NCBI GenBank assembly: GCA_011088105.1
Contig: JAALKI010000021.1
Span: forward strand, 1 to 45,164
DNA length: 45,164 nt
Direction: 5' to 3'
Source: Nitrospirota bacterium
GTDB lineage: Bacteria; Nitrospirota; Nitrospiria; Nitrospirales; UBA8639
Shown in pieces: positions 18,285-39,645 of the stretch. Numbering within the stretch: position 1 is the first letter of the stretch; every line of letters begins with the position of its first letter. The notes beneath the pieces were generated by a model, which made no database searches, was not told the DNA's origin, and saw only the letters and a list, made by a program, of their open reading frames with translations. The position numbers and the translations under genes were made by a program.

Positions 18285-18380
18285 TCGATTGTGGTGTCCG
18301 CCGCCTAGTGGCGGTTATGGAAATAATGGCATACAATACGTATGTTCAGATGATTGCCTCTTTTTCGGTTTATTCCCTCA

Positions 18381-21300
18381 ATGAAACTGTGGACGTGGAA
18401 GCACAGTATTCAGCACAAGACCATCTTAGCTGTGGTGCTTGTTGGTCTCTTACCTGCTCTCCTCCTGCTCCTGCTGACGTATATTGAAGAACGAAAGGCT
18501 CTTCGCGAAGCCATTGGGTCAAACTTCAAGGGTATGGCCGTTGAAGTCGCTCGAAAGATCGAGACCCAGATTATTCGTGGCGTGAATGAAGCTCAGCAGT
18601 TAGCCACGATTCCCTTCATTCGTTCAGCTGTCACCGAAGCGAACCGAAGTTACGAAGGCAAAACGGCAGAGCAAGTTCAGACATTTATTGCTGAATGGCA
18701 AGAACGGTGGCGCCAACGCACGCATCCTGATCAATTCCCAGCTTTTGTGAATCAAATCGCAATAAATTATTTGATCGATTGGCATGCTGTTCGAAAATCC
18801 GACTATTTAGCCATTGTTGTGACAGACAATCAGGGTGTGCTTGTCCTGAGTTCTTTCCCACAAGTGAAATTTTATCAAGGTGATGCTGTGTGGTGGCGGG
18901 CCGCCTTTCACGAAGGGCGTGGGCAAACGTATGTGAGTGACCTCTCATTTGACCCTTCATTTGGCACGCATGTGTTACATGTCGCGGTGCCTATTTTTGA
19001 TGAACGATTTGAAGGTGTCGTGGGAGCCATTAGCATTCTTTTACGCAGAGATTCCCTCTTTCGGTCCATTTCGGAGGTCAGCGCAGGGTCGACAGGCCAT
19101 GCGATGTTGATGGCGTCTAATGGGGTTCCGCTAATTTGTCCCGTTCGGTCGTTAGAAGAACATTCCATGCTTCCCTCATTGGTTGATGCGATCAATAAAA
19201 CACCATCCGGCTGGGTGCAGGCCGTTCAAGATTCTCATGGCGCCCAAGATGCGCTTGTGGGATTTGCCCGTTTGCGATTTGGCGATACTGTGGCTCCGGA
19301 AAGTTTTGGCGGACAATCCTGGGTAACCTTTGTCAGGCAAGATCCTGAGGAAACCTATGCCCCACTTGGGCAACTTCTTGCCAAAGTGGCGGTCTATGGC
19401 ATCATGGTGTTTGTGCTTCTGTGGTTAGCGGGGCTATTTGTCGCGCGTAGAATTGTGCACCCTATCCAATCGCTTCATGAAGGGGTTCACCGAATTGGAC
19501 GTGGCAATCTTGATGATCAACTTGTTGTGACAACGGGCGATGAAATTGAAGATTTAGCCCATGCCTTTAACAAGATGGCCGCCAACTTAAAGCAGTCGTT
19601 TGCACAACTCAATGAGCAAATGCAGGAGATTCGTCAGTTGGAAGAGAAGTATCGTGACCTCATTGAGCATTCCCCCGAAATGATCCATCAAATCGATAAG
19701 GATGGACGCTTTGTCCATGTCAATAAGACGGAATTGGACAAATTAGGCTATACCCTTGACGAAATGTTGCAGATGAATTTATGGGATATTGTGCCTCTTG
19801 AACAGAAGCCTGCCATCATCGCGTATTGCCAACATTTACCACGACAAGGAAAGAATATAATCGAAACAATCTTTGTCTCTCGGGATGCGGTTTCGATTGA
19901 TGTCGAAATTCATTCGACAGCGCTGATTGATTCAACCAGTAGGGAGTTGGTCTATACTCGTGCCTTTGTGCGGGATATCACCGAGCGGCGTATCCTGCAA
20001 ACCAAAGTTCAGCGATATACGACCGAATTAGAAGAAGAAGTTTCCAAACAAACCCAACAACTCTCTGAATCGGAGCAGCGCTATCGGGTGCTGTTTAATC
20101 TTGCGGCTGATTCTATTGTGGTTGTCGATGCCGATGGGTGCATCACAGCGGCCAATGAACGAGAACAAGAGGTGTTTGGGTACACAGAATCTGAACTGCT
20201 TGGCCGATCATTCCTGACATTTGTCTGTGAGAACGGGCAATCTGAAGTGAAAAGCTTATTCGAACAAGTGGTTCATGGTGCACAACAAATTCCGACGAAA
20301 GAAATCTTGGTGTCTGATGTGCATCATGAGATTCGGCCTGTGGAAATGGACATGATTCGGGTGGGCGAAAAGGCCGAGCTGTTTGTGATTGTGCAGCTTC
20401 GTGATATTACCGAACGCAAACAATTGGAAAAGCAACTTCGAAAGTACCGTGAGGAGTTGGAAGAAAAAGTCCAAGAACGAACCAAAGAAATCCAACAAAC
20501 GAAATACTACTTGGAAAGTTTATTGGAAAATGCAAATGATGTCATTTATACCTTAGATATCGATCAGCGGTTTACCTATGTCAACAGCCAGGTGGCCATG
20601 TGGGGGTATCGCAAGGAAGATCTCATTGGGCGTCCATATTTATCTCTTTTGTCCAAGCGACACCGGGGACGGCGACTCAAAGACACGTTAGATATTGGTG
20701 CCAAACAGGAATATGAAGTCGAATTTGTGAGTCGGGCAGGGGAACATCGGTCGGTCGTGGTGAGTGTTTCTCCTCTTCGAAATGAGAAGGGCGCAGTTTC
20801 AGGTGTATTAGGGATTGCCCGTGATGTGACGGAACGCAAGCGCTTTGACCGGCAGATTCGCAATACGGAACGCTTGGCCTCAGTGGGTAAACTCGCGGCT
20901 GGCGTCGCGCATGAAATCAATAATCCCTTAGGCGGCATGTTAAATTGCTTATATAACATTCGGAAAGGGACGCTTTCCCCGGCTCGCCAGGAAGAGTACT
21001 TAACGTATATGGATGATGGGTTGCGGCGTGCACAACAGATTGTGCGGCAGCTGTTAGACTTTTCCCAACAACATGAGCCCGAACCAACATTGAGCAATCT
21101 GATGACCATTGTGGAACGTGTGCTTGTGCTCACCGACCATACAATCACTGAAAAACACCTGACGTTGGTGAAAGAGTATGATCAGGGTTTACCGCAGGTC
21201 TTGGTCGATCCACACATGATTCAACAAGTGGTGATGAATCTTGTCTTGAACGCGGTCCAAGCCACAGCTGAAGGTGGGCGCATTACCATTCGGCTTCGAA

Positions 21301-21560
21301 GACAGGATGATGCGTGTGAAGTTGATGTGGTAGATACGGGGGCAGGCATTCCTTCAGACATTCGTCCACATATTTTTGATCCGTTTTTCACAACGAAGCC
21401 AACCGGAGAAGGCACAGGCCTCGGCCTCTCCGTCAGCTTGGGTATTGTGGAACGACATGATGGTCAGCTCTTAGTGGAAAGTGAAGTGGGTATTGGGACT
21501 ATATTCACGGTACGACTTCCTATTGTGGCCGGAGCCTTTACCATGGTGAAAGGACGATGA
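18381..21560 (+). CDS. Membrane sensor histidine kinase with Cache-like sensor, HAMP and three PAS domains
   Basis: 1059 aa from the ATG at 18381; a TTG nine codons earlier is also possible and neither has a clear ribosome site. Order: TM1 (14-34), periplasmic double-Cache-like sensor (about 40-335), TM2 (336-356), HAMP (about 355-410), PAS1 (from ~423), coiled coil, PAS2 (from ~567), coiled coil, PAS3 (from ~709), HisKA with phospho-acceptor H844 in HEINNPLGG, and HATPase with N-box NLVLNA, DTGAGIP and GEGTGLGLS. The kinase core is the NtrB/AtoS type. It overlaps the response regulator by ATGA and surely acts on it. The ligand is unknown. Confidence 0.92.
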
Positions 21561-22999
21561 ACCCTCGAACCGTTTTGATTATTGATGATGAGCCATTGAT
21601 GCGTATGTCTATGGTGGATGCGCTCAATGCTGTAGGGTATGAGGTGCAAACCGCGTCGACAGGGGATGAAGGTTTGGCGAAAATTCAGGCGGCTTTGTTT
21701 GATGTAGTGATCACGGATCTTCATTTGCCTGGTGCAAATGGGTTGCAAATTGTGCAGGCCTGTAAACAACGGTCCTCGACGACCGAAGTCTTAGTGATTA
21801 CCGCCCATGGTTCTGTGGATACTGCAGTCCAAGCGATGAAATCAGGCGCACATGACTATATTACCAAGCCATTTTCTATGGATGAGTTACTCTTGATTAT
21901 GGATCGAGCCACCAGTGTCATTGCCCTTCGACAGGAAAATGTCCAATTACGCCGTGAATTGGAAGGGACGTTCAGCTTTGAGGGGATTGTCGGGAAGAAT
22001 ACACGGATGAGGGAAATCCTTGAGAAAATGAAGTTGGTTTCTACGTCAATTGCCACGGTGCTGATTATTGGTGAAAGTGGTACGGGGAAAGAATTAGTCG
22101 CAAATGCCATTCATCGAAATAGTCCTCGTCGTGATCATGCCTTAGTAAAAGTTAGCTGTGCGGCTCTTCCAGAAACGCTGTTAGAGGCAGAGTTGTTTGG
22201 CCATGAAAAGGGGGCGTTTACTGGGGCCTTGAAGCAGCGTCGCGGGCGATTTGAACTAGCTCATAAAGGCACATTGTTTCTAGATGAAATTGGAGAGATT
22301 GCCCCTGTTGTCCAAGTGAAATTACTTCGAGTTTTGCAGGAACGGCAATTTGAACGAGTTGGGGGAAATGAAACCATTGAATGTGATGTGCGGTTAGTAT
22401 GTGCAACACAGAAAGATCTGCAAACCGAGGTTGCGCAAGGACGATTTCGCGAGGATTTATTTTACCGATTAAATGTGGTGCCGGTCTTGTTGCCACCATT
22501 GCGAGAACGCCGAGAAGATATTGTCATGCTTGCAGAGCATCTGCTTGCTAGGTGTATTGGGCGGTTTGATGGAAATATAAAGGGATTTTCAAAGGATGCT
22601 TGTGAAGTGTTGCTGCGATATTCTTTCCCCGGAAATGTTCGGGAACTTGAAAATACCATTGAACGGGCTGTGGCCTTGGCGCAACATGAAGGGGAAGTGC
22701 AAGTCTGGCATCTGTGTGGGCAAACCACGTGTCCATATTTGGGAGGGGCAGCTCAACCAAGTTGTGGTTTTTGTCAGGAGGGTCTGTCCTTGCCGACACC
22801 AATGGCTCATCCTCACGAGAGCTTAGCCCTTGCTCGGGAGCAGTTTGAACGAGAGTACATCCTTCGGGTGTTGGAACGAACAGAGGGAAGTAAAATCATG
22901 GCCTCCAAGCTTCTTGGACTGTCAAGAAAATCCTTATGGGAGAAGTGTAAACGATATGGGATCTCGACTGATGGCGAAGGCAATAGCGAGCCTGTCTGA
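21557..22999 (+). CDS. NtrC-family sigma-54 response regulator with a four-cysteine linker
   Basis: 480 aa. Receiver domain with phospho-acceptor D54 and KPFSMDE, AAA+ domain with Walker A GESGTGKE (about 171), the sigma-54-contacting GAFTGA loop (about 219), and a C-terminal Fis-type helix-turn-helix (SKIMASKLLGLSRKSLWEKC). With GAFTGA intact it should activate sigma-54 promoters after phosphorylation by the kinase encoded just upstream (4-bp overlap). Unusual: between the AAA+ and HTH domains lie C387, C392, C403 and C406 (CGQTTC...CGFC), which could bind zinc or an Fe-S cluster and add a second input. It converges with the WD40 gene six bases further on. Confidence 0.94.
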   Translation: MNPRTVLIIDDEPLMRMSMVDALNAVGYEVQTASTGDEGLAKIQAALFDVVITDLHLPGANGLQIVQACKQRSSTTEVLVITAHGSVDTAVQAMKSGAHDYITKPFSMDELLLIMDRATSVIALRQENVQLRRELEGTFSFEGIVGKNTRMREILEKMKLVSTSIATVLIIGESGTGKELVANAIHRNSPRRDHALVKVSCAALPETLLEAELFGHEKGAFTGALKQRRGRFELAHKGTLFLDEIGEIAPVVQVKLLRVLQERQFERVGGNETIECDVRLVCATQKDLQTEVAQGRFREDLFYRLNVVPVLLPPLRERREDIVMLAEHLLARCIGRFDGNIKGFSKDACEVLLRYSFPGNVRELENTIERAVALAQHEGEVQVWHLCGQTTCPYLGGAAQPSCGFCQEGLSLPTPMAHPHESLALAREQFEREYILRVLERTEGSKIMASKLLGLSRKSLWEKCKRYGISTDGEGNSEPV

Positions 23000-23005
23000 T
23001 CCCTG

Positions 23006-24073
23006 TTAGTGCTCCTCGCCTTCCCATAGTTTGATTGTTCGGTCCCAAGAGGCGCTGGCCAAAAACCGGCCATCAGGGGAAAACGCTACTCCACGTACGG
23101 GGCCGGAATGCCCGGTCAGAGTTTTGAGCAGTCGACCAGTTTCAAGGTTCCACAGTTTGATCGTATGGTCATCGCTTGAGCTGACGAGGACTTTTCCATC
23201 TGGTGAAATAATCAAACATCGAACCCATTCGGTATGGCCTCTCAGGGTTCTCATATCACGAAAACTCGGCATCTCAAAAAATTTAATGGTGGTATCGCGA
23301 CTTCCCGTGATCAGCACCTTCCCGTCAGGTGTAAAGGTCATGGCTCCAATCCAATATTCCATGGGCTTCTGAAATCCTCCATGTTCATCAACATAGAAGC
23401 CTCTGGATTCTGTTTCTTCATCATCGGCTTCATCGCGCCAATGGCCATTGTGCACAGCAATTTCTTCACCACTGGGAAGGACTTCATAGAGTTTTAATTT
23501 GCCAATGTCGCTTCCGCCAACAAGGTGTAGGCCATCGGGTGAAAAGGCAGTGCACACGGTCCAATGCATGTCGAATTGATCTTTGCCAAGAAGCGACATA
23601 AGGTCTGTGCCGGTGGTAACTTCCCAAATTTTAATGTCTTTATTTTGTCCCGCCCTGGCTAACATCAGTCCATCGGGAGAAAAGGAAAGACTCGCGACCG
23701 CATGGTCATAGCGAGTAAAGAGTAATCGGGTGGTTTCGCCTGTTTGTGGGTCCCAAAGCCGAATGGTTCGATCATCGCTGCCTGTTGCCAACATTTGACC
23801 GTCAGGGCTGAATACCACTTGGCGGATGTCCTGGGTGTGGCCACGAAGTGATTTGAGCAATCGTCCCGTTTCAATGTCCCATAGACGGACATACTGATCG
23901 GCTCCTCCGGTGGCAAGGGTTGTGCCGTCGGGCGAATAGGCGATACTCCAAAGGCCATGAGAATGCCCACGAAATGTTTTAACCACTCGGCCTCCCTTTC
24001 CCCAGTAGTCAAGCATATCTAAGGAGGCAACGGGTTCCGCGAGTGTGTTTGGTGTATGGCTTTCATAGTCCAT
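23006..24073 (-). CDS. WD40-repeat beta-propeller protein
   Basis: 355 aa made almost entirely of seven WD40 repeats, enough for one closed propeller. Repeats 1, 2, 6 and 7 are canonical (RGH...FSPDG...ATGS.D.TIRLWD); 3-5 are diverged and repeat 5 has an acidic insertion (RDEADDEETESRG). There is no signal peptide or membrane segment, so it is probably cytoplasmic and acts as a scaffold. AAAGGAG precedes the ATG. It is transcribed away from the respiratory block and its role is unknown. Confidence 0.88.
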   Translation of the reverse strand: MDYESHTPNTLAEPVASLDMLDYWGKGGRVVKTFRGHSHGLWSIAYSPDGTTLATGGADQYVRLWDIETGRLLKSLRGHTQDIRQVVFSPDGQMLATGSDDRTIRLWDPQTGETTRLLFTRYDHAVASLSFSPDGLMLARAGQNKDIKIWEVTTGTDLMSLLGKDQFDMHWTVCTAFSPDGLHLVGGSDIGKLKLYEVLPSGEEIAVHNGHWRDEADDEETESRGFYVDEHGGFQKPMEYWIGAMTFTPDGKVLITGSRDTTIKFFEMPSFRDMRTLRGHTEWVRCLIISPDGKVLVSSSDDHTIKLWNLETGRLLKTLTGHSGPVRGVAFSPDGRFLASASWDRTIKLWEGEEH

Positions 24074-24132
24074 GATGAAGTAACTCCTTTAGTGAGGCTC
24101 TTTGGTCTGAAGGCTTGTGATTTCGAGTATGA

Positions 24133-24162
24133 TTGCGAATAGTGTAATCAAGTGACTATAAT
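24133..24162 (+). promoter_or_regulatory. Candidate sigma-70 promoter of the first accessory respiratory unit
   Basis: TTGCGA (24133-24138), an 18-bp spacer and a perfect TATAAT (24157-24162), in the 249-bp gap between the divergent WD40 gene and the HExxH gene. It would give a leader of about 150 bases before the ATG at 24323. The only strong -10 in the gap on this strand. Confidence 0.5.
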
Positions 24163-24322
24163 TTAGAACGTTTGGTGATACTACTGATCAGATCGAAACC
24201 GAGTCAAGGTGAGTACCCGCATATAGAAAAATTGATTAACGTTTTATGGGCGAGATGAGTGGTGTCACCGGAGTGATCAATGTGTTTCGGTGTCTTAATG
24301 AACTTGCCTAAAAGGATGTGAA

Positions 24323-25321
24323 ATGGAAATCCGCTTTCAACCCGCCCTGCTTCAAGAAGTTGTTGATTCATTTGCAGAGAAAACTGAACGAGAAGGTGAT
24401 CCAACGTATTATAACGAGTTTCATGAGTTAGCCGATCCCGTGTATGAGAAGTTTTCTCTTGATGATCGTGAACCGGAGTTTAAAAAACTCTATCAGCATT
24501 TATTTGCTAAATGGGGGTTTGCAGACATCCTGCGTGATGCTTTTAATGAGGATCCTGTTGTCAAGGCCAAGATAGGCATTGTCTTAGTCCGTGGGGTGCT
24601 CAAGGAAGATCAGGAAGGTGTCGATATTCTGAGGAAATGGGGGGTTGTTGAAGAAAAGCTTGCCAAAAAATTTGAAGCCCAGGGCCTGAAAGGCATTGGC
24701 ATTAAATTGATTCCCCGTCGTTTTTATGATCCGGCACTCAGTCGATATTTCCGTCATGAGCTGACGCATATTGCCGATATGTTGCATGACGATTTTGGGT
24801 ATGATCCTGATACGAAAGTTGGGTTCAATCCAGGTGAAGAGCATCTTATCTTAAATCGATACCGTATTTTGTGGTGTCTTCACATTGATAGTCGACTGGC
24901 TCGTGACGGAAAAGAACCGATGTTTAATCGAGAACATCGGTTCCGGGAGTTTCGGTCTTGGTATCGGAAAATTCCTCCGACCCAAGTTGAGTCAGTCTTT
25001 GAAGGTCTTTGGCAGACAGACTACTTGACGCATGCCGAATTAGCCGAAATGGCCGCAGATACGATGCGTGTCATCGAACGGGCAGTTGAGATGGAAGAGG
25101 GCGAAGCGCCGAATCTTCCAACCAAACCATTATTGATGCCGGGGTTCCCATGTCCGCTTTGCCGATTTCCTACCTACTCTTGGGTAGAGGATTTAGATGA
25201 GAAAGTCGAAACCTATGTGCTCGATTTCATCCGAGAAAATCATCCAGGCTGGGATGTTGAATATGGAGCATGCGATCGATGCGTGGAAGTCTATAAATTG
25301 CGGGCTGCAGGGGTGGTCTAG
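24323..25321 (+). CDS. HExxH-motif protein with C-terminal CxxC/CxxC ribbon, unknown function
   Basis: 332 aa soluble protein with no signal peptide. The centre contains HELTHIADMLH (H145, E146, H149, D152, H155), a zinc-protease consensus with the third His at metzincin spacing but Asp in place of the usual Gly. The C-terminus has two cysteine pairs (C277/C280 and C317/C320), probably a zinc ribbon. The N-terminal 140 residues are helical and acidic. I do not recognise a named family. It is the first gene of the unit leading to the ferredoxin, TorD-like chaperone and NxrC-like subunit, so a role in maturation or quality control of that enzyme is a reasonable guess only. AAAAGGATG lies before the ATG. 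Confidence 0.75.
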   Translation: MEIRFQPALLQEVVDSFAEKTEREGDPTYYNEFHELADPVYEKFSLDDREPEFKKLYQHLFAKWGFADILRDAFNEDPVVKAKIGIVLVRGVLKEDQEGVDILRKWGVVEEKLAKKFEAQGLKGIGIKLIPRRFYDPALSRYFRHELTHIADMLHDDFGYDPDTKVGFNPGEEHLILNRYRILWCLHIDSRLARDGKEPMFNREHRFREFRSWYRKIPPTQVESVFEGLWQTDYLTHAELAEMAADTMRVIERAVEMEEGEAPNLPTKPLLMPGFPCPLCRFPTYSWVEDLDEKVETYVLDFIRENHPGWDVEYGACDRCVEVYKLRAAGVV

Positions 25322-25420: not shown

Positions 25421-26053
25421 ATGGCTCTTGCCTCTTCCGAAGATGCTCAAAAACGACAGGACTTTTCCCCTAGTCGTCGAAATTTTATTAAACAATCAGT
25501 AGTTTCATTAGGCTTGACTGTCCGTGAATACGTCCATCATCGGAATGCCCCAGCTGAAAAGAAAACAGGTACTACGGAAATTATCGAAAAAAAGAATTGG
25601 TTGCGGCCACCTGGGGCTGTTGAGGAACAGGAGTTCCTTGAACGCTGCACGAGCTGCGGAGATTGTGTCAGTGCCTGTCCTTATGGAAGCATTCGAGAAC
25701 AGGAGCCAGATTACACGCCTGTTATTTTCGCAGATGAATCTCCCTGTTATGTCTGTAAGGATTTACCTTGTATTCGGGCTTGTGAAACAGATGCATTGCT
25801 TCCTCTTGACGATGTAAGTCAAGTTAAGATGGGGCTTGCCGTTGTTTCCCCACAACGCTGTACGGCAGAGCAAGGCTGTCATACGTGTGTGTCAAAATGT
25901 CCGACACAGGCGTTGGACATGGATTTCTCCAATTTCCGTCTTGCCGTTGCTGAAAATCGATGTGTCGGCTGTGGAGTCTGTGAACATGTCTGTAAGACGG
26001 TGAATGACCGAGTGGCCATTGTCGTGATTCCGCTGATGCCTTCTACTGAGTAA
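25421..26053 (+). CDS. Ferredoxin-like protein with four [4Fe-4S] sites (NapG/NapF type)
   Basis: 210 aa. Sixteen cysteines in four groups: 76/79/82/86, 109/112/117/121, 147/153/156/160 and 181/184/187/191, enough for four [4Fe-4S] clusters as in NapG/MauM electron carriers. The N-terminus has SRRNFIK (18-24), a twin-arginine motif, but the following hydrophobic stretch is short, so Tat export is possible rather than certain. AAGG precedes the ATG. Between the HExxH gene and the TorD-like chaperone it probably serves electron transfer or maturation of a molybdoenzyme. Confidence 0.85.
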   Translation: MALASSEDAQKRQDFSPSRRNFIKQSVVSLGLTVREYVHHRNAPAEKKTGTTEIIEKKNWLRPPGAVEEQEFLERCTSCGDCVSACPYGSIREQEPDYTPVIFADESPCYVCKDLPCIRACETDALLPLDDVSQVKMGLAVVSPQRCTAEQGCHTCVSKCPTQALDMDFSNFRLAVAENRCVGCGVCEHVCKTVNDRVAIVVIPLMPSTE

Positions 26054-26163: not shown

Positions 26164-27168
26164 GTGTCAAAAGTCTTTACCAGAAAGTTTTTGGTGAGGG
26201 AAGCTGTGGCAACAAAATTACAAGAAAATCCTGTTTCTGAGGTTGATTCTGAAATGGGAAATAATGTCTCTGGAAGTGGAGTCATGAAAGACTCTCCAGT
26301 TGTAGAGAGGGCTTTATCGAGAAGCAAGCTTTACCTCTTGTTATCTTGGAGCTATTTATATCCAGAAGATGATGAGTTTTTGGAATACTTGCAAAGCGGA
26401 GAATTTGTTGAGGATGGTCGAGTTTCCCTTGCTTCTCTGAAAAAGACAGTGGATGGAGAAGGTGGGGAAGATGCTGAAGAGCATTTGGACTCCCTAAATA
26501 GTTACTTTGATGAAATAGAAGAATGGGTTTCCTCTGAAGGAATCAATTGGAATATCCAAGATCTCCGTGATGACCATCGTCGTGTGTTTAGCAATGTTAT
26601 TTCACTAGACTGTCCTCCCTATGAGACCCTCTTTGGAAATGACCATATTTTTGGTCAATCCTACGTGATGGGAGATATCTCAGGTTTTTACAATGCTTTT
26701 GGCCTTCAGATGTCGCAAGATATTCATGAACGTCTGGATCATTTAAGCGTTGAGCTTGAATTTCTTCATTTTTTGGCCTACAAAGAATCCTACGCCTTAT
26801 GCCATGACACTCAAGAAAAACTGCAGACAGTCGTGGATGCTGAAAAAAAGTTTGTTAAAGAGCATGTTGGTCGTTGGGTGCCCTTGTTCTCTGGCATGTT
26901 AAAGAAGAAGGCAGACTTTGGTTTTTATCGCATGCTCGCAGATCTGACTTCCGCCTTAGTTGCTTTCGAAATTGGATTTTTAAATGTTACCCCACAGCCT
27001 TATTCCGAAACAGATTATCGTCCTGCTCACTTTATGGGGCCAGAAGGTCAATCATATGAGTGTGGCGCTCAAGATCAGGGCAATGAGTTGAATTTGTTAA
27101 TGAATGAAGTGGGTGCACAAGAGTTTCTTGACAAAGGGAACCAAGATCAAGAAGATTCTGGGTCTTAA
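26164..27168 (+). CDS. TorD/NarJ-family molybdoenzyme chaperone
   Basis: 334 aa, all helical, acidic. Family marks are the central DCPPYETLFG followed by the GFYNAFGL segment and the ERLDHLSVELEFLHFLAYKE helix seen in TorD/DmsD-type chaperones, which bind the Tat signal and apo-form of DMSO-reductase-family enzymes until the cofactor is loaded. It is longer than usual: a disordered N-terminus (from a GTG at 26164) and a Glu/Asp-rich tail. An ATG at 26284, with GGAG just upstream, would remove 40 residues and may be the true start. No catalytic molybdoenzyme is encoded in the window, so its client lies elsewhere. Confidence 0.82.
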   Translation: MSKVFTRKFLVREAVATKLQENPVSEVDSEMGNNVSGSGVMKDSPVVERALSRSKLYLLLSWSYLYPEDDEFLEYLQSGEFVEDGRVSLASLKKTVDGEGGEDAEEHLDSLNSYFDEIEEWVSSEGINWNIQDLRDDHRRVFSNVISLDCPPYETLFGNDHIFGQSYVMGDISGFYNAFGLQMSQDIHERLDHLSVELEFLHFLAYKESYALCHDTQEKLQTVVDAEKKFVKEHVGRWVPLFSGMLKKKADFGFYRMLADLTSALVAFEIGFLNVTPQPYSETDYRPAHFMGPEGQSYECGAQDQGNELNLLMNEVGAQEFLDKGNQDQEDSGS

Positions 27169-27276: not shown

Positions 27277-28230
27277 ATGAGAGTGGTGCAGACGCGTAAC
27301 AAACGGCTGGTTTTCGGCATTCTTCTCTCTGCATTCGTTGTGGGAGTTATGTTGACATTAGGGCAGGTGCCCTTGGCAGTCAGTCAACCAGTAACTATCC
27401 CAGTCGGTAAAATTTCAGGTACAATTCCCATGGATGCAGCGAATCCTGTTTGGGAAACTGTGCCTGGTATCGTGGTTCCTCTGAGTGGCCAAACAATTAC
27501 CACTCCGATGCATCCAAACATTTCAGTGAAGACCGTAATGGTTAAAATGGCCACGAATGGTAAGGAAATTGGTGTATGGGCTAACTGGGGTGATCAGACC
27601 CTCAACAATACGACTATTGGCCCACAAGATTTTCGTGACCAGGTAGCCGTACAGTTCCCTGTCCAAACTTCTGGTGCGCCTCCCTTTCAATGTATGGGGC
27701 AATCCGGAGGAACCGTCAACATTTGGCGTTGGAATGCGGAATGGCAAAAAGACCTTGGAGCAGGCGTCGCTGGGATGTGGGATGTTGACAACCAATATCC
27801 TTCCATTGCTTGGGACTTCTATTATGAAGAACCTGCTGGCGGTGTGACGTATCCTGACCGAATTGGGCGAAGCCTTGGGCCATTCAACCCAGGTATCTGG
27901 TCTGGTAACATCATGTCTGACCCAGATCTTCGAGTCAGTTCTGTAGAAGATTTGAATGCCAATGGATTTAGTACTTTGACGACTCAGGCAACCCAAAATG
28001 TCATGGGAAATGGGCTTTGGGAACCATATGGGGCGTTAAAAGGTGGTTGCTGTAGCGGACCAACATGGCGTGTGGTCATGAAAAGATCTCTGACAACAAC
28101 TGATTCGAATGACGTTCAATTCAAATCTGGAATGTCTTTCCCTGTGGCATTTGCAGTCTGGGATGGACAAAATGTTGAGCGAAATGGGATGAAAGGAATC
28201 TCAACCTGGTTTACGGCAAAAATGCCATAA
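27277..28230 (+). CDS. nxrC: NxrC-like heme-binding gamma subunit (ethylbenzene dehydrogenase-related)
   Basis: 317 aa exported protein with a signal peptide (basic start, hydrophobic 11-30, probable cleavage near 37). The mature part fits the type II DMSO-reductase gamma subunit, which binds one heme b and carries electrons from the Fe-S beta subunit. Ligand candidates known for EbdC, one Met and one Lys, match M140 in FQCMGQ and K269 in VVMKRS; the family end AVWDGQNVERNGMKGIS is present. A CC pair (258-259) is unusual. The ribosome site is very strong (AAAGGAGGATG). It is followed by an intrinsic terminator. Naming it nxrC rests on the Nitrospira-like context; nxrA/B are not here. Confidence 0.75.
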   Translation: MRVVQTRNKRLVFGILLSAFVVGVMLTLGQVPLAVSQPVTIPVGKISGTIPMDAANPVWETVPGIVVPLSGQTITTPMHPNISVKTVMVKMATNGKEIGVWANWGDQTLNNTTIGPQDFRDQVAVQFPVQTSGAPPFQCMGQSGGTVNIWRWNAEWQKDLGAGVAGMWDVDNQYPSIAWDFYYEEPAGGVTYPDRIGRSLGPFNPGIWSGNIMSDPDLRVSSVEDLNANGFSTLTTQATQNVMGNGLWEPYGALKGGCCSGPTWRVVMKRSLTTTDSNDVQFKSGMSFPVAFAVWDGQNVERNGMKGISTWFTAKMP

Positions 28231-33952: not shown

Positions 33953-34807
33953 ATGAGAGGAGGGTGGCGCAGATGTCAACGATCCCGACTTGTCAGCCTG
34001 ACCACATTGGTGATTCTGAGTGCGGTTGTCGGTCTTGTTTGGTTTGATATCCCGATAGTCAGTTCCCATGGCGTCATTGTCCGGTCGCATTATGTAGCCG
34101 GAGACGTTCCTACCCATCCGACCGATGAGGCTTGGGCCTCTATCCCGCCGATGCCTATTCCCATGAGTGGGCAAATTGTGACTCGACCCGTATGGCCTGA
34201 GCCAAGTGCAAAGGCCTTATCCGTTCGCTCTCTTCACAATGGAAAAGAGATTGCCTTTCTGTTGGAGTGGCGGGATGCCACTGTCAATGAACGGCTCACG
34301 CCAGGTGTGTTTCGAGATGGGGTGGCTATCGCTCTACCCTTAGGAAATGCCCCAGCATTTTTTTGTATGGGGCAATTAGATCATTATGTGAACATTTGGC
34401 ATTGGAAAGCAGATTGGCAGAGTGATATCAATCGGCGAGTCGCGAGAGCGCAAGAAAAAGGTCGGAAGCGAAAGGGGATTCGACGATTTGAAGTAATCCC
34501 ACGACGACCTTCTTCTGTCGAGGATTTAATTGGTGGGGGATTTAGCACGCTCACTAGCAAAAAACGTCAGGGACGAATAAAAGGCCAAGCCCAATGGAAA
34601 CGTGGTTTTTGGCAAGTAGTTATGAAACGACCGCTCAGTCAAGAAACCGATGATCGAGAAAATGAGGCGATGTTGGAACCTGGTCGGCTGCAATCTGTGG
34701 CCTTTGCCATATGGAATGGTGAAAACCAAGAACGAAACGGTCAAAAAGCTGTTGCGACATGGATGCAGCTCATCATTGATCCGGTCAAAAAGGCGAATAA
34801 AGAATAG
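33953..34807 (+). CDS. Second heme-binding gamma-subunit paralogue (EbdC/NxrC-like)
   Basis: 284 aa. The N-terminus is Arg-rich with a hydrophobic segment (about 13-32), a signal peptide or anchor. The rest is colinear with the NxrC-like protein encoded at 27277: ligand candidates M139 in FFCMGQ and K225 in VVMKRP, NIWHWKADWQ, SSVEDL..GGFSTL, and the end AIWNGENQERNGQKAVATW. It differs by a basic Arg/Lys patch (about 160-185) where the other has a Tyr/Pro-rich loop. Presumably a periplasmic heme-b electron carrier for an alternative or second complex. TATAAT at 33929 lacks a matching -35 box. Confidence 0.78.
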   Translation: MRGGWRRCQRSRLVSLTTLVILSAVVGLVWFDIPIVSSHGVIVRSHYVAGDVPTHPTDEAWASIPPMPIPMSGQIVTRPVWPEPSAKALSVRSLHNGKEIAFLLEWRDATVNERLTPGVFRDGVAIALPLGNAPAFFCMGQLDHYVNIWHWKADWQSDINRRVARAQEKGRKRKGIRRFEVIPRRPSSVEDLIGGGFSTLTSKKRQGRIKGQAQWKRGFWQVVMKRPLSQETDDRENEAMLEPGRLQSVAFAIWNGENQERNGQKAVATWMQLIIDPVKKANKE

Positions 34808-35316: not shown

Positions 35317-35334
35317 ATCGTGTTGAGGCAAAAA

Positions 35335-36642
35335 ATGTCTCTGGCGAGGTGCTGGTACAAGCAGAGCGGGATGATTGCTCTGGCTCTGTGTGTACTGCTG
35401 ATCTCTATGCAGATTGCCCTCGCCCAGGATCCAGTCTCATCACCAAACGATGAGGCGTGGCTCGAAGAAATTCAACACATTTTCGTGCCTTCAGATCAGT
35501 GCAAACAATGTCACGATCGGCATTATGAAGAATGGAAAGGGATGCGCGAACAGACGCCGGACCTGAAATCCTTTGGACGAGTTGATGGCGCGCTCTTACA
35601 TGGAACGGCCTTGACGTCGCCGGTGTTTCAAACGGTGTTGGGACTATGGTTAGAAACAGATCCGACGCAAGAAGAACGAACCAAATGTTTATCGTGTCAT
35701 GTCCCTGCAGTAACAGTCTTTCCCCAGCATACCGACAACGTGATTGCTCAGGTCATGGCTGGCCCCAAACACGTAAAAGTCGAAGGCATTGGGTGTTCAG
35801 CCTGCCATCTCATTAAGTCGACAGTGGATCATGCGGGGTCTCCTCCAACGTTTAAGATCGAGCCAAGTGCCACGATGTATGGGCCATATGATCAGCCAGA
35901 AGAAAACTTAGTGCACCCCTCCCATCAAGCACAGATATATAATGGCGCGAACTACTGTGCGGCCTGTCATTTTAGTAAAGTGAAGGATGTTACAAGTCCT
36001 AGTTTATCTGGTGAAATTCTAAAAGGCACCATTTGTCAGGATTGTCACATGGAACCATCGACGGGAAGCTCGACCTCCAAACGAGGAGCCCTAACCAGAC
36101 CCATCGGGCGCCATTGGTTTCAAGGTATTGTGATTCCAGGGATTATGTTGAGTAATCGTAATCTTCAGGCAGAGTGGTTTTCTCGGGTCGATATTGATGT
36201 TACCAAGATGACGAATGGAGTGGGCGGCACGGTGTTGGTGCGCAATGGAAGCCTCCCACACATGTTTCCCGGTGGAGATCCAGTCTTAAAACAGTTTTTT
36301 GTAACCATCCACATCAAAGACCAGGATGGGAACCTCTTGGCAAAAGAGGAAAAACGTTTTGGTTTAGGGTTTGATGAAATCCTTCGTGGTCCCATTCCAA
36401 CGCCTCTTGTGAACGGCGGAGTCACGCGAAAGATTCCATTTTTTCTCAATGTCCCAGAAGGAAAAACAGCCTCTTTGGTCGAAGCCGTTTTAAGCTATGC
36501 GCTAATCCCAAAACCGGATGAGGCAGTGAAAAGTCGATATATCGCAACTCTGAAAACCGAACATGAAAAAAAGTCCGCACACAATATTATTGAAGACTAC
36601 TCTACGGCAAGGCTATTAACATTCCGAACGAAAGACCTATAA
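35335..36642 (+). CDS. Five-heme cytochrome c (c554-like) with C-terminal beta domain
   Basis: 435 aa from the ATG at 35335, preferred over a GTG at 35320 because GAGG lies six bases upstream of it. Signal peptide to about residue 30. Five CxxCH sites start at C56, C118, C154, C208 and C234, in the layout of the cytochrome c554 family (CKQCH, then EEW, CLSCH, G..CSACHLI). The last ~170 residues have no heme site and look like a beta-sandwich. A periplasmic electron carrier, probably accepting electrons from the gamma-subunit complex. A close paralogue follows. Confidence 0.88.
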   Translation: MSLARCWYKQSGMIALALCVLLISMQIALAQDPVSSPNDEAWLEEIQHIFVPSDQCKQCHDRHYEEWKGMREQTPDLKSFGRVDGALLHGTALTSPVFQTVLGLWLETDPTQEERTKCLSCHVPAVTVFPQHTDNVIAQVMAGPKHVKVEGIGCSACHLIKSTVDHAGSPPTFKIEPSATMYGPYDQPEENLVHPSHQAQIYNGANYCAACHFSKVKDVTSPSLSGEILKGTICQDCHMEPSTGSSTSKRGALTRPIGRHWFQGIVIPGIMLSNRNLQAEWFSRVDIDVTKMTNGVGGTVLVRNGSLPHMFPGGDPVLKQFFVTIHIKDQDGNLLAKEEKRFGLGFDEILRGPIPTPLVNGGVTRKIPFFLNVPEGKTASLVEAVLSYALIPKPDEAVKSRYIATLKTEHEKKSAHNIIEDYSTARLLTFRTKDL

Positions 36643-36801: not shown

Positions 36802-38037
36802 ATGTGGAAGTACCGAAAGTTATTAATAAGCGTTGTTGGCGGACTTGGAATTATAGGAGTCTGGTCTGGGGGGAATGGGTTTCCGGTCGATGCGGCGGAA
36901 GGTATGACCAAGGACAAAAAACCCTTGGAGCGAGCGTTTCCCCATTCTAATAAGTGTAAACGTTGTCATGAACGCGTGTTTGAAGAATGGGAGGCTTCGC
37001 CACTGTCACAATCGATCCATTCTGCCCCATTTCGTGTCGCCCTTGATCGGTATCTTGATACTGAAAGGAATCGTGACCGTACCTTCTGTTTCCGTTGTCA
37101 TGCTCCCCATATCCTTGAATATCCCGAACAAGCTGACCATTTCACGAAAGAAGTCCAGTCACGAGATCCCTTGATTGATGGTGTAGGCTGTGCCCAGTGT
37201 CATCTCGTCAACACGGTTGATTCGACTGTCAAGCCACCGCATCCTCATTTTGCGTTAGGTAAAACGGTATTTGGGGGCTACAAGAAACCTGTCTCAAACT
37301 TGGCACATCAATCAAAGGCACTCGATCTTTTCAAAAGCTCGACGTTCTGTCTTATGTGTCATGAGGCATTGCCCGATAGAGACAAAGAACATCAGATGCC
37401 GGGATTACTGGGAGATTGGAAGAACACACAGGCCAACCAGAAAGGGAAGGCTTGTCAATCATGTCACATGCCAGAGCAATTTGGCGAGTCAGCCAATGGG
37501 GAGCGGAATCGAAAAGTTGCCAATCATACCTTTCCTGGTCGACTAGGGAAACTTCAGCAAGAAGCTGCAGAGTTGGACATTCAGACGGAAGTAAAAGGAA
37601 AGACCTCTGTGGTCACGGTAACGTTGCAAAGCCTAGTGCCTCATAATTTGCCCTTGCCACATCCAGGATGGGTGAGTGTGATTTTAGACTTGACGATCAA
37701 AGGAAAAAATTTGCGGAAGGTCTATGGAGAGAATCGGGTCTATACTCGAGTCTTTGCTGATGCCAAAGGCAAGGAAACCGTCTTTGATTTTGAAGGTGTG
37801 ACCGTTGTGAAGGATACGGTTCTCAAGCCAGAAGAAACGAGGGTGGAAACCTTTTCATTTCCAACACCCAAAGATGCGCCATCCATGGATGTGATTGTCA
37901 CATTGCGATATGAGCCTGTAAAGGGACCGTCGGACTTTCTTAAAGCCATTGAACAAGCATCCAGCCGAGGATCCAAAGATCCTGTCTTCCAGTCAATCGA
38001 CATTGTTCAAAAGAAAATCAATGTCCTTCTTAAATAA
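36802..38037 (+). CDS. Second five-heme cytochrome c of the same family
   Basis: 411 aa with signal peptide (about 1-32). CxxCH sites start at C52, C96, C130, C183 and C218, the same order and similar spacing as in the protein encoded at 35335, so the two arose by duplication but have diverged well beyond simple copying. The C-terminal ~180 residues are heme-free. The 159-bp gap from the first cytochrome holds no obvious terminator or promoter. A hairpin follows at 38096. Likely a periplasmic electron carrier. Confidence 0.88.
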   Translation: MWKYRKLLISVVGGLGIIGVWSGGNGFPVDAAEGMTKDKKPLERAFPHSNKCKRCHERVFEEWEASPLSQSIHSAPFRVALDRYLDTERNRDRTFCFRCHAPHILEYPEQADHFTKEVQSRDPLIDGVGCAQCHLVNTVDSTVKPPHPHFALGKTVFGGYKKPVSNLAHQSKALDLFKSSTFCLMCHEALPDRDKEHQMPGLLGDWKNTQANQKGKACQSCHMPEQFGESANGERNRKVANHTFPGRLGKLQQEAAELDIQTEVKGKTSVVTVTLQSLVPHNLPLPHPGWVSVILDLTIKGKNLRKVYGENRVYTRVFADAKGKETVFDFEGVTVVKDTVLKPEETRVETFSFPTPKDAPSMDVIVTLRYEPVKGPSDFLKAIEQASSRGSKDPVFQSIDIVQKKINVLLK

Positions 38038-38847: not shown

Positions 38848-39645
38848 TGACTGGCTGCCCCATTTTGAGGCCACAAGGAAGGTGAGTTTCTGGCAGAATC
38901 TCCGAACAGGAGAAAGGGGAGAGGCCATGAAACAGAAACGATTTTCGATCGAACACATTATGGCGGTCGTGAAGTAAGCGAATATCGGGACACCCGTGAC
39001 CGAACTGATTCGCAAGGTGGGAATCAGTAAACGAACTTTTTATCGGTGGAAGAAACAGTACCAAGGGATGGAAGCAGACCACGTGTGGGAATTGAAACAC
39101 CTGCAAGAGGAGAACACCCGGCTGAAACGGGTGGTGGCCGATCAATTGGTGGATGGCCGCCGGTTTCGAGCCCTGACAGTGGTCGATAATTATAGTCGGG
39201 CCTGTCAAATCATAGAGGTCGATGCCACGCTCACCGGACGGAAGGTGGTAGGAGCGTTGGATCGGGTGGTGAAGCGAACAGGTTATCTCAAGATGATTAC
39301 TGTGGATAATCGCAGTGAATTTACTTCGAAGGCCCTAGATGCGTGGGCGTATGAACATGGCGTGAAGCTGGATTTCATTCGACCGGGAAAACCCGTGGAG
39401 AACGCGGTGATTGAGAGCTTCAATGGGCGATTACGGGATGAGTGCTTAAATACCAATGTATTTATTTCCTTGCACGATGCGAGACAGAAGATTGAAGCGT
39501 GGTGCATCGATTATAATGAGCACCGGCCGCATGGCTCCTTAGGCCATCTGACGCCTGTGGAATTTGCGAAAAAAGGGGCACAAACAAGTATCTCAGCAGT
39601 GCAGAATTTCTAACCACGGTTGGCTCAGTTTCTGGGGAGGGGTCA
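38848..39645 (+). mobile_element. Degenerate IS3-type element with an internal deletion
   Basis: Imperfect inverted ends begin TGACTGGCTGCCCCA on the left (38848) and read TGGGGAGGGGTCA at the right (about 39633-39645), both with a GAGGCCA/GAGCCA block a few bases in. Intact IS3 elements are about 1.2-1.4 kb; this one is about 0.8 kb. The transposase is a pseudogene. These ends differ from the 54-bp IS termini at the window edges, so it is another element. Confidence 0.75.
38927..39613 (+). pseudogene. IS3-family transposase: OrfA with a nonsense codon fused in frame to the OrfB C-terminus
   Basis: The OrfA part begins at ATG 38927 (MKQKRFSIEHIMAVVK) and has a TAA as codon 17, where a Gln codon is expected. 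It continues in frame (TELIRKVGISKRTFYRWKKQY) to LKRVVADQ and passes directly into the OrfB core at QLVDGRRFRALTVVDN. The OrfA end, the frameshift region, the OrfB N-terminal HTH and the first catalytic Asp are missing. The second Asp (TVDNRSEF, usually VDNGPEF) and the Glu region (IESFNGRLRDEC) remain. A GTG at 38996 gives an open frame of 205 codons, but it cannot be an active DDE transposase. Confidence 0.88.

Follow-up and report, generated by a model that had tools for sequence, protein, structure and literature searches.

The window analysed here, a 45,164-nt stretch of Nitrospirota DNA, encodes a 332-aa protein (24323..25321, forward strand) that combines an HExxH motif with a C-terminal four-Cys module and that tracks periplasmic nitrite oxidoreductase (NXR), not type II DMSO-reductase enzymes at large. 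We propose that it is a putative cytoplasmic accessory metalloprotein of NXR, and one that may act on immature NXR as a Glu-type zincin peptidase, a combined reading that we advance tentatively. Among its parts, dedication to NXR is very probable and a metal-binding zincin-like core, as predicted from the motifs, is likely; that the protein is an active peptidase is conceivable, if somewhat doubtful.

The gene was identified as an open reading frame and its relatives were found by homology search. The motif HELTHIADMLH (residues 145-155; 24755..24787, forward strand) contains the residues H145, E146, H149, D152 and H155 which a preliminary description had read from the DNA, together with two CxxC pairs near the C-terminus. 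Both pairs are present, at C277 and C280 (CPLC; 25151..25162, forward strand) and at C317 and C320 (CDRC; 25271..25282, forward strand), so that the span 24755-25282 runs from the codon of H145 through that of C320; the remaining Cys of the protein is at position 185. The same description had taken the protein to belong to an unnamed family and, indeed, the 332-aa protein had no match in Pfam and NCBIfam at E<=1. Similarly, PDB sequence searches with the single sequence and with a profile gave no significant match. The cytoplasmic location also proposed there is a reasonable prediction, since the translation carries no N-terminal hydrophobic signal. The protein was shuffled 100,000 times: 2.9% of the shuffled sequences contained HExxH, 0.07% contained HExxHxxxxxH, and 0.01% had two CxxC pairs separated by 20-60 residues. 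An HExxH in a single protein could therefore be due to chance, and it is conservation that decides.

To this end 99 matches were reduced to 68 distinct sequences and supplemented with the joined protein of the genome G089, giving 69 rows; 68-row counts are those from which one row trimmed to 180 aa was dropped. Matches ending at 329-330 (L035, L038) were excluded from some row sets and L025 from one. The rows represent nearly one bacterial order with G089 as the single outlier, so that the invariance described below partly reflects shared ancestry. The HExxH gene of G089 is split across two contigs (L090/L089; G089:C41, C53), its pieces showing 30% and 40% identity to the protein encoded in the window. 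H145, E146, H149, D152, E172, E173 and D189 were invariant in 68/68 rows and C277, C280, C317 and C320 in 69/69. Mean identity between G089 and the other rows was 24% over residues 1-82, 19% over 83-138, 48% over 139-195, 33% over 196-262 and 39% over 263-332, and the two best-kept 15-residue windows were 273-287 (the CPLC block, 73%, best) and 145-159 (the HExxH block, 72%). Position 155, on the other hand, was D in 61 rows, N in 4, S in 2 and H in 1 (n=68), this sole H being that of the window's own genome, where the codon CAT is a single base away from GAT or AAT (D/N). Thus, among the three His and the Glu for which conservation had been anticipated, H145, H149 and E146 were retained throughout and H155 was found in 1/68 rows only. 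The pattern, G089 included, suggests that the HExxHxxD motif and the Cys module form a functional signature to which the third His does not belong. Poor conservation of E146, which the preliminary description had considered, was not observed (68/68 rows retain it), and this speaks mildly against a degenerate metal-binding protein.

These data bear on the possibility that the HExxH is coincidental, the block doing other work (as an NXR-binding helix, for example) and only the four-Cys module binding metal. The frequency of the motif in shuffled sequences, its occurrence in the window's sensor kinase (HEGVH at 375) and the low confidence of the fold models described below are all compatible with coincidence. 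However, the block 145-159 is among the two best-kept in G089 and its four motif residues are all invariant, and we regard coincidence as very unlikely.

The motif had been described as metzincin-like. Besides HExxH, metzincins need a Gly at +7, a third ligand (His or Asp) at +10 and, beyond it, the methionine of a Met-turn. While HExxH with its catalytic Glu position was present in 68/68 rows, the turn Gly was replaced by Asp in all 68, the +10 position varied as given above, and no Met column beyond 155 was invariant, the best being M243 (65/68) and M200 (59/68), with L and V, respectively, in G089. A metzincin identity was consequently rejected on conservation, the +10 His being private to one genome. 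A broader version, in which zinc has position 155 (D, here H) as its third ligand, like the HExxHxxGxxD/H families, would place the protein among metzincins or Asp-zincins (MA(M)). The +10 residue is a zinc-capable D or H in 62/68 rows, and PMC3890501 describes Asp-zincins with HExxHxxGxxD and reports N, T or W in place of the Gly. Nevertheless, N or S occupies position 155 in 6/68 rows, the Asp at the Gly position and the lack of an invariant later Met both set the family apart, and HExxHxxDxxD also occurs, in the same genomes, in M90 proteins, which appear among the Glu-zincins and not the metzincins in Table 2 of PMC3890501. We consider this version highly improbable.

The true M90/MtfA proteins of these genomes, including that of the window's own (motif HEFAHLLDKSDG; G000:C35, L132:4823-5527, reverse strand, identified by profile match), thus share with the NXR-linked family the local patterns HExxHxxDxxD and N-P-x-E. 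One could therefore expect a divergent M90/MtfA-type Glu-zincin peptidase that was recruited to NXR. In hhalign comparisons of the cores, M90 indeed scored best among three zincin families (25.1, against 18.6 for SprT and 18.0 for M48, these two comparators doing no better than M90). Yet 60 controls with shuffled columns gave a mean of 20.9 (sd 3.5) and a maximum of 28.1, a range that includes the score of 25.1, and comparison of the whole profiles of the family and M90 gave nothing above control; common descent with M90 is therefore not claimed. The M90 profile (PF06167) had no match in any of 21 family members at E<=10, whereas the MtfA protein of the window's genome scored 245.9 bits in the same profile library. 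In M90/MtfA the Glu ligand lies further along than HExxHxxDxxD, and the spacing of 23 from H149 to E172 is much shorter than that from the M90 motif to EFFAV. The NXR-linked family also adds the C-terminal four-Cys module. In spite of a persuasive motif, M90 membership was thus rejected, and recruitment of an M90-type peptidase seems quite unlikely.

SprT-like/Spartan proteins (PF10263) resemble the family in that a zinc ribbon comes after an HExxH domain, but a single member matched, at 14.8 bits (E 0.026) against a cut-off of 25.6, and residues 150-262 contain no invariant His (68 rows) that could serve as the SprT-type third His. More generally, no peptidase-family profile match to family members reached its cut-off. 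What the family does have downstream of the motif is the pair E172-E173 (24836..24841, forward strand), invariant in 68/68 rows, G089 too. The pair comes after N/T/S-P-x and is the natural candidate for the third metal ligand, a role in which it would correspond to the conserved downstream Glu of Glu-zincins; we regard a Glu-type third ligand as an evenly balanced prediction.

Two AlphaFold models were obtained, one of the full-length protein (A2; 40 rows, mean pLDDT 61.2) and one of residues 1-262 of L018 (A3; 39 rows, mean pLDDT 66.3). In these low-confidence models a strand at 84-90 is followed by a helix at 97-119, a strand at 123-129 and a helix at 139-154 that carries HExxH; the next helix begins at 173 or 178, and the loop 160-179 with E172/E173 has a pLDDT <50. 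Foldseek found no PDB match at E<=0.001 with either model (mean pLDDT 61 and 66). With VIA, Z reached up to 4.9 and 7.0 with these low-confidence models, mostly on helical stretches of unrelated proteins, and no zincin was prominent. The predicted order of secondary structure elements suits a zincin, yet it matched no solved structure; both models being of low confidence and without a known-fold match, a zincin fold is a tentative prediction.

The four-Cys module is also encountered alone. A family profile (A1) detected, besides full-length relatives, proteins of ~60 aa with the pattern CPxC...HPEW...GACxxC in G198 (L124:7750-7932, reverse strand) and G089 (L125:362-541, forward strand), for which no Pfam family scored over its cut-off. 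The module thus looks like a mobile zinc module that would have been joined to the HExxH domain.

In the window, the HExxH gene is preceded by a sensor kinase (18354-21560, forward strand, read from its translation), a sigma-54-type response regulator (21557-22999, forward strand; Pfam, NCBIfam) and a divergent WD40 beta-propeller gene (23006..24073, reverse strand; Pfam and adjacency in relatives). It is followed, all on the forward strand, by a NapG/NapF-like 4Fe-4S ferredoxin (25421..26053; Pfam Fer4, best NCBIfam match NapG-type), a TorD-like chaperone (26164..27168; PF02613, TIGR03482) and an NxrC-type heme b subunit (EB_dh; 27277..28230; PF09459, TIGR03477), and then by a radical SAM gene. 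Further along, a second NxrC-like (EB_dh) gene at 33953-34807 precedes genes for a PDZ-type protein and for a pair of multiheme cytochromes (35320-36642 and 36802-38037), and the edge of the cluster is marked by a transposase/integrase-type ORF (rve_3, HTH_Tnp_1; 38996-39613). We surveyed this arrangement at 53 loci, leaving out L090, a partial gene below the BLAST threshold. The WD40 gene was adjacent and in divergent orientation in 49/49 testable loci and the ferredoxin was the next gene in 50/51; the ferredoxin-TorD-NxrC order followed the HExxH gene in 30/32, with the radical SAM gene as well in 25/26. The sensor kinase and regulator kept the same order in relatives. The two exceptions were L039 (11000-11800), where the HExxH gene and the ferredoxin are still paired and TorD and NxrC do not follow, and G089, where NxrB, TorD and NxrC lie on one contig that ends within the HExxH gene and the second contig carries the rest of this gene and then a short 4Fe-4S protein, the TGA stop and the next ATG overlapping by one base. 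By eye, the sequence past the ferredoxin in L039 resembles a tRNA gene. The HExxH gene had been said to head an NxrC-type unit: this holds as gene order, but with gaps of ~100 bp between the genes a single transcript is not proven. The sigma-54 promoter consensus occurred 43 times versus 46.7 expected, with no match within 24074-24322.

We next consider the distribution of the protein. Close relatives were found at 41 GTDB loci, in 55/59 relative genomes and in 77/245 genomes of the phylum, the 55 matching genomes among the 59 relatives searched having exactly one copy each. No relative was found in the viral contigs and plasmids searched. L040 was not counted as an occurrence in another phylum, its contig position coinciding with that of G001, a member of the window's own family. 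Profile A1 had a match in 140/395 phylum genomes, from which G038 and G198 were removed (match to the four-Cys module only). The remaining 138 genomes belong to three families of the order, with the sole exception of G089, from another class.

In the window genome, a different contig encodes NxrA (1145 aa) as well as NxrB (429 aa). When this NxrB was used as a query, 114/395 genomes matched at E<=1e-60: 98 from Nitrospirales families and G089 (71% identical), and 16 from elsewhere, at about 50-55% identity where a value was given. Within the 98, the match of G359 is only 50% identical and the identity for G039 was not given; both genomes have the protein. The HExxH protein was present in 96/98 genomes with Nitrospirales-type NxrB versus 0/16 with the NxrB-like protein. 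The co-occurrence with nxr genes that the preliminary description had suggested is thus strong over the 395 phylum genomes (table 96/2/42/255, Fisher p 3e-55), although the genomes are related and this kinship makes p an overstatement. G296 and G383, the two genomes of the 98 without the protein, do have NxrA, and their contigs break at the expected place: that of G296 stops inside the ferredoxin gene and that of G383 starts at TorD. In G220, NxrA is present and TorD, the regulator and the HExxH gene are all missing, which means that the assembly lacks the entire cluster. Conversely, 42/138 genomes with the protein had no NxrB match; the collapse of multi-copy, near-identical nxrAB in assemblies (MAGs) is a published reason for missing nxr (PMC12342949). 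Family f4 had NxrA in 0/4 genomes and the full-length protein in 0/4, and G038 had a weak four-Cys match only. Family f4 probably corresponds to UBA2166, which PMC12342949 gives as the one clade in the order that lacks NXR.

Outside the class, G089 carries NxrB, TorD, NxrC and the HExxH gene in one run and has no NxrA match in an assembly that is 77% complete. The 16 genomes with an NxrB-like protein (G112, G129, G156 and G167, for example) belong to families without the HExxH gene. By the HExxH-protein marker, their NxrB-like proteins are predicted to be related type II enzymes and not NXR proper.

From the co-occurrence with NXR, the protein is probably a helper in building this enzyme, and from the observed gene order, co-distribution and motif invariance we infer a scheme for its fold, metal binding, catalysis and substrate. 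An N-terminal part (about 1-80) would be helical. The zincin-like core (about 84-195) would hold one zinc by H145 and H149, with E172 or E173 as third ligand in a Glu-zincin arrangement and E146 activating water, and the C-terminal module (277-320), the one also known from small stand-alone proteins, would form a four-Cys zinc site. The protein would act on NxrA/NxrB prior to Tat export, jointly with the NapG-like ferredoxin and the TorD encoded next to it, its most likely role being that of a maturation or quality-control peptidase which clips or removes immature NXR subunits.

The main rival to this scheme is a non-catalytic accessory protein, in which HExxH and the four Cys bind zinc structurally and which serves as a chaperone or scaffold for loading Fe-S or Mo-cofactor into NXR, much as FdhE or NapF-type factors do. 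The HExxH gene has features in common with the accessory factors of Mo-bisMGD enzymes (TorD/NarJ, NapF/NapG and FdhE): it looks cytoplasmic, it lies in the accessory run of an enzyme of the type II DMSO-reductase family, and its product has a putative four-Cys zinc module; to our knowledge, none of these factors has an HExxH core. The rival is favoured by the four-Cys module, by the lack of a peptidase family match and by the ferredoxin being the tightest partner, the next gene in 50/51 testable loci and still paired in L039 without TorD and NxrC. Non-catalytic homologues often lose the catalytic Glu, however, and E146 is invariant even in the ~30%-identical N-terminal piece from G089. A non-catalytic role is thus a real possibility, albeit one that we rather doubt.

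A bolder form of the peptidase reading is suggested by analogy. Specific endopeptidases complete [NiFe] hydrogenases, while we know of no proteolytic maturation step so far for enzymes of the DMSO reductase family. A dedicated metallopeptidase could be a fixed part of periplasmic NXR assembly, cleaving or proofreading NxrA or NxrB as a checkpoint for Fe-S and Mo-cofactor before Tat export; this is speculative and, in our judgement, unlikely.

The gene is already inside published gene sets as one of 'unknown function'. The cluster NITMOv2_3614-3631 of Nitrospira moscoviensis, which resembles that of the window in NxrC, TorD, multiheme cytochromes and a two-component system, is described as diagnostic for nitrite-oxidising Nitrospirales; it encodes several proteins of unknown function, its proteins were found expressed, and the HExxH gene is not named, nor an HExxH or peptidase mentioned, in the accessible part of that account (PMC12342949). 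From the order of NxrC (3624), TorD (3625) and the NapG-like gene (3626) in that cluster, NITMOv2_3627 would be the counterpart of the HExxH gene. Beside this nxrC, the accessible part of PMC8115096 names TorD and the NapG-like ferredoxin only. One putative zinc finger protein common to Kuenenia, Nitrospira and Nitrospina, reported in PMC3578206, may be the HExxH protein; no HExxH or peptidase is mentioned in the part of that account accessible to us. The open literature that we searched contained no account of the HExxH motif of this protein or of the protein as a peptidase.

Virtually all biological nitrate is made by NXR (PMC8387239). The protein described here goes with NXR but not with the relatives of NXR at ~50% identity, and it carries a candidate active-site Glu that can be tested. 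It is a concrete candidate for the component missing in the production of NXR in foreign hosts. As it occurs once per genome (55 genomes), unlike nxrAB with its several near-identical copies, it also offers a single-copy marker.
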